A stretch of 64,000 bases of DNA from Microbacterium maritypicum (GTDB lineage: Bacteria; Actinomycetota; Actinomycetes; Actinomycetales; Microbacteriaceae): positions 3,720,001 to 3,784,000 of the forward strand of contig NZ_CP168030.1 of assembly GCF_041529975.1 (NCBI RefSeq). Direction: 5' to 3'. Under the pieces are notes generated by a model that had not been told where the DNA came from, searched no databases, and saw only the letters and a list, made by a program, of their open reading frames with translations. This document shows, piece by piece, positions 58,829-62,837 of this stretch. The translations under genes were made by a program, and so were the position numbers. Position 1 is the stretch's first letter. Each line of letters opens with the position of its first letter.

Positions 58829-58871
58829 CTGTCAAGGGTAGAGCCCGCGGGGGTGGAAGATGAGCACGTCA

Positions 58872-58906
58872 TGTACATCTCAGACTTCAAAATGTACAAT
58901 TTGCCC
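58872..58906 (+). promoter_or_regulatory. yefM-relE promoter with two TGTACA operators
   Basis: TGTACA at 58872-58877 and again at 58893-58898, 21 bases apart (two helical turns). The first takes the -35 position, the second overlaps the -10 box TACAAT (58895-58900), and the ATG is 6 bases further. TGTACA is the known core of the YefM-YoeB operator in E. coli, so the site and the antitoxin type agree. Confidence 0.82.
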
Positions 58907-59155
58907 ATGTCCACGATCAGCGTCGCCGACGCGCGCAACAACCTCTCGACGGTCATCGCCCGCTCCCAGGAGGAGGCCGTGTTCATCGAGCGACGCGGTC
59001 AGCGTGCCGCCGTCGTGGTCAGCCCGGAGCAGTACGAACGGATGATCGAGGCACTTGAAGATGCCGAAGACGTGGCCGCGTTCGACGAGGCGATGGCAGA
59101 AGAAGGCCCGGACATCCCCTGGGATCAGGTGAAGGCCGACCTGGGCTGGACGTGA
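58907..59155 (+). CDS. yefM: Phd/YefM-family antitoxin
   Basis: 82 residues from ATG 58907, leaderless by the -10 position. MSTISVADARNNLSTVIARSQEEAVFIERRGQRAAVVVSPEQYERM is the YefM/Phd fold that binds DNA; the C-terminal region (DEAMAEEGPDIPWDQVKADLG) is acidic and toxin-binding. The stop overlaps the GTG of the toxin gene (GTGA). The operator in front carries the YefM core TGTACA twice. Confidence 0.9.
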   Translation: MSTISVADARNNLSTVIARSQEEAVFIERRGQRAAVVVSPEQYERMIEALEDAEDVAAFDEAMAEEGPDIPWDQVKADLGWT

Positions 59156-59409
59156 GTTATCGGATCGAACTGCGCCCCGCTGCGGTTCGAGCATTGAAGA
59201 AGGTCGACCATCAGGATCGCGACCGGATCCGCGGTGCCATCGCCCTGCTCGGCGAGAACCCCCGCCCGCCGGGAGCGAAGGCGCTGCAGGGACGCGACGG
59301 ACTCCGCGTCCGCGTCGGGAACTACCGCATCATCTACACGATCGACGACGACGTGCTCATCGTCGCGGTCGTGACGCTGGGTCATCGGCGGGACGTCTAC
59401 GAGCAGTAG
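59152..59409 (+). CDS. relE: RelE/ParE-superfamily toxin
   Basis: 85 residues from GTG 59152. The RelE fold is clear: YRIELRPAAVRALKKVDHQDRDRIRGAI, then GRDGLRVRVGNYRIIYTID and the C-terminal VVTLGHRRDVYEQ with the Arg/His/Tyr set used by ribosome-dependent mRNA endonucleases. Co-translated with YefM. After its stop, 160 bases (59410-59568) hold nothing I can support. Confidence 0.9.
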   Translation: MSYRIELRPAAVRALKKVDHQDRDRIRGAIALLGENPRPPGAKALQGRDGLRVRVGNYRIIYTIDDDVLIVAVVTLGHRRDVYEQ

Positions 59410-59568
59410 CGAAGCCGGAGTGCTGGACGTCGCCGCCTAAAGCGAAGCCGATCCGATGCTTGCGGGGGCATCGACAACACAACGTAAGCCCCAATCGGTT
59501 CACGGGCTGCGGCGTCACGGATGAGGGGCACCGGACGTTGGTGAACCTCACCCACAGCAGCGCACGAA

Positions 59569-59688
59569 TCAGTCGCGCCGTTTGCCGCCGCGCTTGACGC
59601 GAAGGACCAGGTAACCGACGAGTGCGACGACGGCGATGAGCACGATCACCGTGATGACGAGGTGCAGGGGTGCGATACCGGAAGTCAT
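59569..59688 (-). CDS. 39-residue single-helix membrane protein
   Basis: MTSGIAPLHLVITVIVLIA, then VVALVGYLVLRVKRGGKRRD: one membrane helix with a strongly basic tail. Its ATG overlaps the stop of the 77-residue protein upstream (ATGA, 59685-59688), a coupling that supports it being real despite the small size. Function unknown. The pair is divergent from the Abi_2 gene. Confidence 0.6.
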   Translation of the reverse strand: MTSGIAPLHLVITVIVLIAVVALVGYLVLRVKRGGKRRD

Positions 59689-59918
59689 GCGTGAGACGAC
59701 CCTTCGTGTCGTGCCGGTTCCGCCCGGCGCCGGCGACGCACCCTCGCCCCGCCGAGGACCCCGCCGACAGTAAGGACCATGATTGCCGCGGAGACGTAGC
59801 CGTTCACGAAGAACGCAAGGACACCCACACCAACGACAATCAGGAGATCGGTCAGGGAACGCAGCCCGGTGTGGCTTCGTCGGGTGCTTCCAGGCCTCTG
59901 GATCACGTCGGTCCTCAC
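59685..59918 (-). CDS. 77-residue two-helix membrane protein
   Basis: Starts at GTG 59918 after GGAAGGA. Residues ~22-38 (LTDLLIVVGVGVLAFFVNGY) and ~42-58 (SAAIMVLTVGGVLGGARV) are hydrophobic; the tail is Arg-rich. It heads a two-gene unit with the 39-residue protein. Its promoter region contains the 14-base palindrome at 59962-59975. No known family; a holin-like or stress-induced membrane peptide is possible but unproven. Confidence 0.6.
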   Translation of the reverse strand: MRTDVIQRPGSTRRSHTGLRSLTDLLIVVGVGVLAFFVNGYVSAAIMVLTVGGVLGGARVRRRRRAEPARHEGSSHA

Positions 59919-59961
59919 TGTTCCTTCCGCGGCTCACTGGCGGCAGCAAGGGGTTCCTTCA

Positions 59962-59975
59962 GGTAACATGTTACC
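59962..59975. promoter_or_regulatory. 14-base palindrome between the small membrane-protein pair and the Abi_2 gene
   Basis: GGTAACATGTTACC is a perfect palindrome. Being symmetric it offers a TAACAT -10-like hexamer in both directions, so it could be an operator or a shared divergent promoter for the small membrane-protein genes (minus) and the Abi RNA (plus). Confidence 0.55.
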
Positions 59976-59997
59976 CGCCGAATCGGGCTTAGGGCCC

Positions 59998-60078
59998 TCC
60001 TCGCATGGGCTCGAGGATGCTAGTCTTGGAACATCACGATCAGCCCGCTCGCCTCACGGCTCGGGCTGATTTTCTTTT
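59998..60078 (+). ncRNA. Candidate structured RNA preceding the Abi_2 gene
   Basis: Two hairpins follow each other: TCCTCG (59998) with CGAGGA (60012), then ATCAGCCCG (60039-60047) with CGGGCTGAT (60062-60070). A -10-like TAGTCT lies at 60021-60026, and the symmetric TAACAT at 59964 is an alternative start. Transcription would give an RNA of about 50 or 100 bases ending at the U-tract. Abi_2/AbiF proteins are known to be accompanied by a conserved non-coding RNA (the abiF RNA motif); whether this RNA matches that motif is not tested. Confidence 0.5.
60039..60078 (+). terminator. U-tract terminator between the RNA and the Abi_2 start
   Basis: ATCAGCCCG and CGGGCTGAT form a 9-pair stem, topped by GCC-TCAC-GGC, followed by TTTCTTTT. 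Such a complete intrinsic terminator is rare in this GC-rich window. It lies just ahead of the Shine-Dalgarno GGGGAG of the Abi_2 gene, so most transcripts would end here and only read-through would express the protein. Confidence 0.72.
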
Positions 60079-60088
60079 GGGGAGACAC

Positions 60089-61090
60089 GTGGTCGAGTAC
60101 ACCAAGCCTTGGATGTCTATAAAGCAGCAGATTGCGCAACTCCAGGGCAGAGGTCTGATCGTCGACGACGAATCGGCCGCTGAACAGTTGCTCGAAGAGG
60201 TTGGCTACTACCGCCTCACGGGGTATCTCTATCCATCTCGCGAGTCGGAGAAGTTCATTGATGACCGCGGTCGCCAGTCGACTCGTATTCTGAGTTCGTA
60301 TCGGAAGGACACCCGTCTGGAGCATGCTGCGGCGCTGATCGCATTCGATCGCGCGCTACGCCTGCTCGTTCTCGAGGCCGTCGAACGCATCGAGGTTTCG
60401 CTTCGTACTCAAGTCGGCTACATCCTCGGCCAGACTTCGGCCTTCGCGCACCTCGATCAACGATGCTTCACTCCGGCCTTCACCGCGCCATCCATCGATA
60501 CGGGCGCTGGCGTGATGACGAGCAAACATGCCGAGTGGATCAGCCGCGTGGACGAAAGGCGAGCCAGCTCGAAGGAAGCCTTCGTCGAGCACTTTCGACG
60601 GAAATACGACGATCGAATGCCGATTTGGGCACTGACCGAGATTCTTGAACTCGGCCACCTCGCCAAGCTCTACCGCGGGCTGCAGAACGATCTCGCCACT
60701 CGGATCGCCCTTCATTACTCAGTACCCAGCAAGACTGTCCTGGCCAGCTGGATCGCGAGCACCAACTATGTACGGAACGTCGCGGCACACCAGGCGCGCT
60801 TGTTCAACAGAAAGCTCGTCGATGCGCCCACCAGACCAAAGAACAATGCGATTCCCGTGTTGGCGCACCTGCGTGAAGACACAGCGCCGAAGCAGGACTT
60901 CGGCCTCTACAACTCGTTGGCCGTAATCGCGTATCTGCTGCGCAGCATCGGTGGTTACGCCGATTGGACGCGGCGCCTCAAGGAATTGGTAGCCACCTTT
61001 CCGAGTGTCCCCCACGTGAGGATCGACAGCATGGGCTTCCCCGACGGGTGGGCTCAGCAAGGCCTCTGGAAAACCAGCGGATCGAGCTAG
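60089..61090 (+). CDS. Abi_2 (AbiD/AbiF) family abortive-infection protein with HEPN motif
   Basis: 333 residues from GTG 60089, with GGGGAG 5 bases before it. PF07751 landmarks in order: YYRLTGYLYP (40-49), AFDRALRLLVLEAVERIEVSLRTQ (85-107), MPIWALTEILELGHLAKLY (177-195) and RNVAAHQARLFNRKL (229-243). R229-x4-H234 is the Rx4-6H catalytic motif of HEPN ribonucleases, so RNA cleavage in response to phage is the likely action. Base composition is visibly lower in GC than neighbours, a sign of transfer. A structured RNA with terminator precedes it, and no partner antitoxin protein is present. Confidence 0.87.
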   Translation: MVEYTKPWMSIKQQIAQLQGRGLIVDDESAAEQLLEEVGYYRLTGYLYPSRESEKFIDDRGRQSTRILSSYRKDTRLEHAAALIAFDRALRLLVLEAVERIEVSLRTQVGYILGQTSAFAHLDQRCFTPAFTAPSIDTGAGVMTSKHAEWISRVDERRASSKEAFVEHFRRKYDDRMPIWALTEILELGHLAKLYRGLQNDLATRIALHYSVPSKTVLASWIASTNYVRNVAAHQARLFNRKLVDAPTRPKNNAIPVLAHLREDTAPKQDFGLYNSLAVIAYLLRSIGGYADWTRRLKELVATFPSVPHVRIDSMGFPDGWAQQGLWKTSGSS

Positions 61091-61174
61091 ACCCATCGAC
61101 CAGCATCCCCCGGAATGTGTCCGCGCATTTCGGCGGCCCTGGACCGCCCCGCGCCGTTCGCCTTTCATGGGGGC

Positions 61175-62591: not shown

Positions 62592-62621
62592 TTGTACTCG
62601 TGGTACAAGCATCATTAGCAT
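62592..62621 (+). promoter_or_regulatory. hicAB promoter with operator
   Basis: TTGTAC-TCGTG-GTACAA (62592-62608) is a perfect inverted repeat over the -35 region; TAGCAT (62616-62621) is the -10 box, 6 bases before ATG 62628. The stretch is strikingly AT-rich for this genome. The HicB protein with its HTH is the likely binder. Confidence 0.75.
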
Positions 62622-62624
62622 AGA

Positions 62625-62837
62625 ATGATGACCAAGCCGCAGAGGTACCGGGATGTCTCGCGATTCCTCCGCGGGCAAGGCTGGCAGAACACCCGCACAC
62701 GCGGCAGCCACCACATCTGGCAGTCCGGAGACCGGACGCAGACGCTGTCCATCCCGGTCCACGGTGACACAGTAAAAGCCGGAATCGTCCGCCAGGTGCA
62801 GACCGCGTTCCCGAACACTCCGAGCGCATGGAATTGA
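62625..62837 (+). CDS. hicA: HicA toxin (mRNA interferase)
   Basis: 70 residues from ATG 62625 (ATG 62628 fits the leaderless -10 spacing better). The dsRBD-like HicA fold with catalytic His in TRGSHHIWQSG and SIPVHGDTVKAGIVRQV, as in all HicA. It cuts mRNA until HicB binds it. Here hicA precedes hicB, the usual order. Confidence 0.9.
   Translation: MMTKPQRYRDVSRFLRGQGWQNTRTRGSHHIWQSGDRTQTLSIPVHGDTVKAGIVRQVQTAFPNTPSAWN

Follow-up and report, generated by a model that had tools for sequence, protein, structure and literature searches.

The window, by which we mean the whole 64,000-nucleotide stretch of Microbacterium maritypicum DNA analyzed here, lies in a genome of 3.9 Mb assembled as one contig. 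The features relevant to this work are the following:

58857–61109: 2253-bp insertion relative to the same-genus genome G782, holding the AbiF unit, a Phd/ParE pair and small ORFs
58907–59155, plus strand: Phd/YefM antitoxin gene, a neighbor outside the AbiF unit (PF02604, E 2.2e-15)
59152–59409, plus strand: ParE-family toxin gene, a neighbor outside the AbiF unit (PF05016, E 8e-13)
60018–60026, plus strand: putative extended −10 promoter element of the RNA, TGC-TAGTCT (TAnnnT spacing kept in 24/24 class-A loci)
60033–60078, plus strand: class-A AbiF-associated RNA, predicted from alignment and fold to be ~45 nt long and to start at A60033, with a 5' leader AUCAC, a 10-bp stem, an inner 3-bp hairpin and a U tail
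60038–60047, plus strand: 5' arm of the stem, GATCAGCCCG
60062–60071, plus strand: 3' arm of the stem, CGGGCTGATT, leading into the T tract at 60070–60078 (predicted terminator)
60079–60084, plus strand: Shine-Dalgarno-like GGGGAG, recognized from its sequence, abutting the T tract
60089–61090, plus strand: predicted AbiF/Abi_2 HEPN toxin gene (333 aa, GTG start, R229-x4-H234), assigned through Pfam, PADLOC, homology to 8vz6 and a structural model

The product of 60089–61090 has PF07751 (Abi_2) as its sole Pfam domain (E 3.5e-46) and is named AbiD by PADLOC (1.6e-61), with zero matches in NCBIfam. Residues 229–234 read RNVAAH, in agreement with the preliminary description, which had proposed an Abi_2 gene with R229-x4-H234, and both R229 and H234 of this HEPN R-x4-H motif are invariant across 24 aligned proteins. 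A phmmer comparison with PbAbiF (PDB 8vz6, entitled 'PbAbiF dimer bound to ncRNA') gave 8.2e-30 over residues 3–328, with R229 and H234 aligned to the R and H of that protein. An AlphaFold2 model built from 21 sequences reached a pLDDT of 91.4, and Foldseek searches with this model returned a single PDB entry at E≤0.001, namely 8vz6 (E 1.1e-16, TM 0.75/0.83). By sequence and predicted fold, the AbiF of the window is a full-length homologue of PbAbiF. Its GTG start at 60089 lies 4 nt past GGGGAG and 10 nt past the T tract; an alternative start at ATG 60005 was considered unlikely, as the longer frame would run across the hairpin. The nearest named relative at the locus is Microbacterium sp. MYb45 (L001), whose AbiF is 100% identical. 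The lower GC content reported earlier for the unit was also found here, with 0.59 over 60033–61090 versus 0.69 for the whole window.

Folding of 60032–60077 yielded −21.7 kcal/mol (z −5.27), a value equalled by none of 200 shuffles, which upholds the earlier observation of a strong hairpin with a T tail just before the Shine-Dalgarno sequence. The proposal that a two-hairpin structured RNA spans the whole upstream stretch had to be abandoned, as the folding of 59962–60085 (z −1.10; 25/200 shuffles equally good) is no better than chance and the predicted RNA consists of one ~45-nt hairpin. The palindrome at 59962–59975, taken earlier as part of this structure, does exist, but the window has 11 perfect 14-bp palindromes, and a search of 400 nt upstream in 25 class-A loci, allowing up to 2 mismatches, recovered it only in L011 (the window copy) and in MYb45 (L001), where its outer pair is broken. 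Likewise, the first of the two hairpins (~59998–60017) shares positions with the promoter and is not included in the predicted transcript, and in L001 one of its pairs is lost.

In all 24 class-A loci compared (near-copy L001 excluded), a TAnnnT box ends 6 nt (21 loci) or 7 nt (3 loci) before the conserved A of AUCA, the predicted transcription start, and it is preceded at one base by TG in 22 of them. A −10-like box was also detected within ~20 nt before the stem in 90 of 99 hairpin loci of all classes, mostly 11–13 nt away, versus 90 of 1980 positions in a random control. A scan with the sigma-70 consensus found no promoter with a −35 box and also missed the terminator, as the scan allows loops of at most 8 nt. 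In the 19 class-A loci measured, 8–29 nt separate the conserved RNA tail from the first codon. As read from these features, the RNA is a single hairpin whose U tail doubles as a terminator, lying upstream of the toxin gene on the same strand and behind a putative promoter of its own. As the hairpin itself would be the terminator, toxin transcription should need read-through, and the short interval from the T tract to the start codon, with little space for another promoter, likewise suggests that the toxin mRNA comes from read-through.

To place this RNA, 396 genomes of the order were surveyed, of which 71 contained an AbiF relative at E≤1e-20, together with plasmid and phage records. The same block precedes the gene in 9/9 genome loci with AbiF relatives (52–100% identical), and class A amounts in total to 25 loci with 19 distinct RNAs. 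These RNAs were extracted by a pattern that requires the stem foot and the tail, and selection thus explains in part why those letters are constant, but all 25 loci with a protein identity of 50% or more to the window AbiF were captured by the pattern. In the alignment of distinct RNAs, all 190 cells of the outer 10-bp stem are paired and 3 pairs have changes on both sides, so the search for compensatory changes proposed in the preliminary description revealed a conserved and covarying stem in the terminator hairpin. The 46-nt RNA of the window recurs unchanged in Specibacter, Subtercola and a Microbacterium plasmid, the AbiF proteins of which are 58, 55 and 74% identical, respectively. The RNA is better conserved than the DNA next to it, with a mean pairwise identity of 0.868 versus 0.599 over the 50 nt ahead of the promoter and 0.425 at third codon positions (276 pairs from 24 loci); because these alignments are gapped, an identity of 0.6 is near chance.

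The Rfam model for abiF RNA (RF03085, cut-off 37 bits) gave no match in the window at its gathering threshold, was not among the matches up to E 10 on 59850–60200, and gave no match in 15 further class-A loci (L012–L020, L094–L098, L106). Thus, the earlier statement that the gene is accompanied by the conserved abiF RNA does not hold literally, as the window RNA fails that model. Another Rfam candidate, the sX5 sRNA (RF02224), scored 16.7 bits against a cut-off of 50 at 60037–60073, on the CCUCACGGCU core, and was set aside as probably a chance match; according to the accessible part of PMC4652430, sX5 was detected in all X. campestris genomes of that study, a distribution that does not point to sX5 as a mobile partner of AbiF.

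A hairpin with a T-rich tail was detected within 150 nt upstream in 100 of 106 Abi_2 loci, versus 38/2000 random stretches and 37/318 shuffles, at the best of five settings and in loci that are related rather than independent. The other settings gave 99 (random 124; shuffle 45), 95 (56; 14), 96 (14; 12) and 70 (14; 2) of the 106, and under a strict T-tail rule the hairpin was found in 48/106 loci, 14/3000 random stretches and 0/49 long ORFs. Loci L042, L044 and L066 fail the rule at the best setting yet were found by covariance models R1 or R2 (below), and hairpin-less L033 and L091 encode toxins without the N-terminus. The rule also detected no hairpin with T tail before the open Abi_2 genes of L105 (Xanthomonas plasmid), L151 (Streptococcus phage) and L155 (Methylomonas plasmid), which are from other phyla, so the RNA in its hairpin-T-tail form is not universal in the wider protein family.

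Model R1, derived from class A, produced 23 matches at E≤5 in 75 other loci. Eight of them, at E≤0.1, correspond to classes B, C, D and K and lie on the gene strand 7–68 nt before the first codon. Among the 15 weaker matches, 4 fall on the opposite strand. In an alignment of 16 RNAs from the classes found in this way, 8/10 pairs were changed on both sides (0/500 shuffles as high) and the covariation score was 0.542, compared to ≤0.170 for slid partners, with the reservation that rows found through R1 favor R1's stem. Model R2, built from this alignment, yielded 39 matches at E≤0.1 in 74 loci (168,194 bases) that lie outside its building set, many of them being close kin of the rows used. All 39 are on the gene strand; 37 lie directly before Abi_2, and the other two are extra RNA copies further upstream. 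In the 15 class-E loci R2 found none, which indicates that its family is apart from, or far from, RF03085; the Rfam abiF model matched 9/15 class-E loci and 0/77 other labelled loci in a scan that left out 14 loci (L001–L009, L037, L091–L093, L105). On the evidence of these models, the window RNA belongs to a wider RNA family preceding Abi_2 genes. In L026 (2582–2632, minus strand) and L027 (2584–2637, minus strand) a second, toxin-less AbiF-type RNA was observed ~160 nt further upstream, that of L027 being a class-B-like RNA ahead of a class-M system.

The RNAs had been sorted by eye into 13 classes, and these labels were left unedited after a protein tree was computed by a quick method, with SH-aLRT as sole support, for 103 proteins (without the window near-copy L001 and without L020 and L066, whose matched stretches are below 150 aa). 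Class A forms one clade of 23 rows with support 100, and the 13 classes require 12 changes on the tree, which is the minimum, when the hairpin-less rows L033, L091 and L105 are left out; with them included, 15 changes were counted for 14 groups, versus 70.1 in shuffles. Support for some class groupings is weak (36 for E, 0 for I). Because the labels were assigned by eye, raw upstream DNA was also compared with protein identity, giving a Spearman coefficient of 0.394 (0/200 permutations; 5275 pairs below 60% identity), compared to 0.086 for a control stretch 220–330 nt upstream. Several classes can coexist in single genomes, G304 holding A, C and E. As judged from the tree, RNA class is tightly paired with protein clade.

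Across the 396 genomes of the order R1 gave 17 matches: 10 before Abi_2 genes (8 open; L019 and L020 broken), 3 strong orphans, 1 decayed RNA (L123) and 3 chance-like cases (L125–L127) that resemble ordinary terminators. Within ~1.5 kb of context, the strong orphans retain ~23 toxin codons (L113), a ~10-codon stub recognized by eye (L122) or none (L121), and the plasmid copy L098 has an intact RNA with a broken toxin gene behind it. No toxin of the class-A clade without RNA was found among the 23 tree rows. Such one-sided decay is what should be expected of a toxin with a trans-acting antidote, the numbers being small (3 strong orphans). A pattern search also revealed an intact class-A RNA at a contig edge of the viral record IMGVR_UViG_2824195264_000002 (L128:15–57), with a transposase-like gene nearby and no Abi_2 gene found; this RNA may mark the boundary of a provirus or else be a carried decoy. 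A protein search of viral contigs detected no AbiF relative. Searches across the phylum (396 genomes with R1, 392 with R2), run with stricter filters and with scoring limited to 15 candidates per genome, returned a true match only in the window's own genome, so outside the order the RNA is either rare or was missed. Weak matches in these searches, three with R1 and three with R2 (L158, L159, L110; L110 in both), were discarded as ordinary hairpins with no convincing Abi_2 gene, L158 showing one 33-residue Abi_2 match at E 0.006.

Type III toxin-antitoxin systems such as ToxIN, CptIN and TenpIN also have an RNA antitoxin before an RNase toxin, with a terminator between them, and in these systems the toxin processes an antitoxin RNA made of tandem repeats. 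The window differs from them in its toxin family and in the lack of tandem repeats, as R1 gave one full-length sense-strand match in each of the 18 class-A loci searched whole. A closer parallel is PbAbiF with its RNA (PDB 8vz6; Zilberzwige-Tal et al. 2025), described as an RNA antitoxin in the accessible parts of PMC12373285 and PMC12737573; its HEPN protein is homologous over the full length and has the same R/H pair, the present comparison being at the level of the proteins and not of the RNA letters. For AbiF-Cd/RCd22 of C. difficile, toxicity, RNA-protein binding and neutralization have been shown experimentally, the HEPN R/H pair is essential, and the order promoter, RNA, terminator, toxin is like that of the window (PMC12373285, from its accessible text). 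The same text describes RCd22 as an RNA in which the Rfam abiF motif occurs twice and the terminator is a separate element, 98 nt long in its major form and 132 nt in full, whereas the window has one ~45-nt hairpin that would itself be the terminator. RF03085 recognizes the copy in phage phiC2 (L107, 37.6 bits) but not the window RNA. RF03085 and the window RNA are both short hairpins before Abi_2, and the RF03085 copies of the order also run into a T tract, but their internal loops and conserved letters differ.

The interpretation that we regard as very probable is that the locus encodes an AbiF toxin-antitoxin unit in which the RNA antitoxin is fused with the terminator and belongs to an RNA family unlisted in Rfam. 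The core of the preliminary description, that is, an AbiF toxin with a short RNA antitoxin, a leaky terminator and horizontal movement, is retained on the strength of PbAbiF homology, covariation, co-diversification and RNAs outlasting the toxin. According to this model, the extended −10 promoter would start transcription at A60033 and most transcripts would stop ~45 nt on, at the U tail of the hairpin, giving an abundant free RNA that would bind the AbiF HEPN dimer and hold its RNase site inactive. The toxin mRNA would be made only by polymerases reading through the hairpin, so that the toxin would always be scarce with respect to the antitoxin and its message would bear the same hairpin in its leader. 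A drop in free RNA, through takeover of transcription by a phage or loss of the element, would then free AbiF to cut RNA and stop growth, by which the unit may act in phage defense.

The closeness of the conserved tail to the first codon would also fit a hairpin that acts only in cis as an attenuator limiting Abi_2 expression, with no free antitoxin RNA, and the C. difficile RNA does have a terminator that lowers toxin transcription in cis (PMC12373285, accessible text). We consider this unlikely, as letters beyond the needs of a terminator are kept (the AUCA leader), the same 46-nt RNA is found in genera with AbiF proteins only 55–58% identical, RNAs outlast the loss of the toxin, and RCd22 works in trans by direct binding (PMC12373285, same text). 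That the RNA is a guide-like partner for target finding, as crRNA is for Cas13, would accord with the description of AbiF as the ancestor of Cas13 in the accessible part of PMC12737573, where AbiF is however also described as a toxin kept inactive by its RNA; as no variable or spacer-like stretch was found in the class-A alignment, in which the RNA is near-constant across genera outside the short inner loop, a guide role is highly improbable. The hairpin does fold like an ordinary GC-rich terminator, and three weak matches of R1 in other genomes resemble such terminators, but a chance terminator or one of an upstream gene, unrelated to Abi_2, is hardly credible given that the likely small ORFs next upstream sit on the opposite strand, that the nearest plus-strand gene with a family match, ParE, ends ~620 nt before the hairpin, that a −10 box lies at a fixed distance in the gap, and that the R2 matches outside its building set concentrate immediately before Abi_2 and on its strand.

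Beyond the toxin-antitoxin unit itself, we lean slightly in favor of a broader reading, in which this would be a second family of AbiF antitoxin RNAs whose hairpin is both antitoxin and leaky terminator, the read-through toxin mRNA would bear its own antidote, the RNA classes would be cognate to their lineages, and toxin-free copies would persist as immunity to related AbiF elements. Among the titles and abstract openings searched, which mostly leave out subscription papers, we found no AbiF RNA in Actinomycetes and no terminator-fused AbiF antitoxin, so that novelty is provisional. The words 'Actinomycet' and 'Actinobacteri' are absent from the main text of PMC12373285. As Rfam lacks the class-A RNA, units carrying it are unannotated on the RNA side. 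How an AbiF RNA antitoxin became a guide is an open question according to the accessible part of PMC12737573, and RNA-protein pairs that vary by clade offer material on the letters read, on the orthogonality of the pairs and on the route from antidote to guide. In addition, the terminator-fused form suggests a simple dose rule, with one promoter and the toxin as the read-through fraction of the antidote.

Regarding mobility, G782 joins the positions corresponding to 58856 and 61110 of the window with 29 bp between them, so the 2253-bp piece is an insertion relative to that genome. Within the genus, matches were restricted to G000 and G289, the latter (L074) of another class, and 16 same-genus genomes had no match. 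Plasmids of Rhodococcus, Cellulosimicrobium and Microbacterium also carry class-A units, as does an unverified phage scaffold. The claim that no protein antitoxin is present is consistent with what is seen for AbiF itself; a short way upstream, however, there is a distinct protein pair, Phd/ParE, whose genes (58907–59409) overlap by 4 bases and are part of the same insertion as the AbiF unit. In two Rhodococcus conjugative plasmids, Fic family genes lie directly before the class-A AbiF units (L095:439–1395 and L096:440–1396). A tmRNA gene and three tRNA genes, which are common integration sites, adjoin Abi_2 loci of other classes (L040:2736–3105, minus strand; L074:21–335, plus strand). With respect to the window, MYb45 (L001) is longer by ~650 bases at the left border of the insertion (58857–58868) and lacks ~180 bases (62617–62794) just downstream of a luciferase-like monooxygenase gene.
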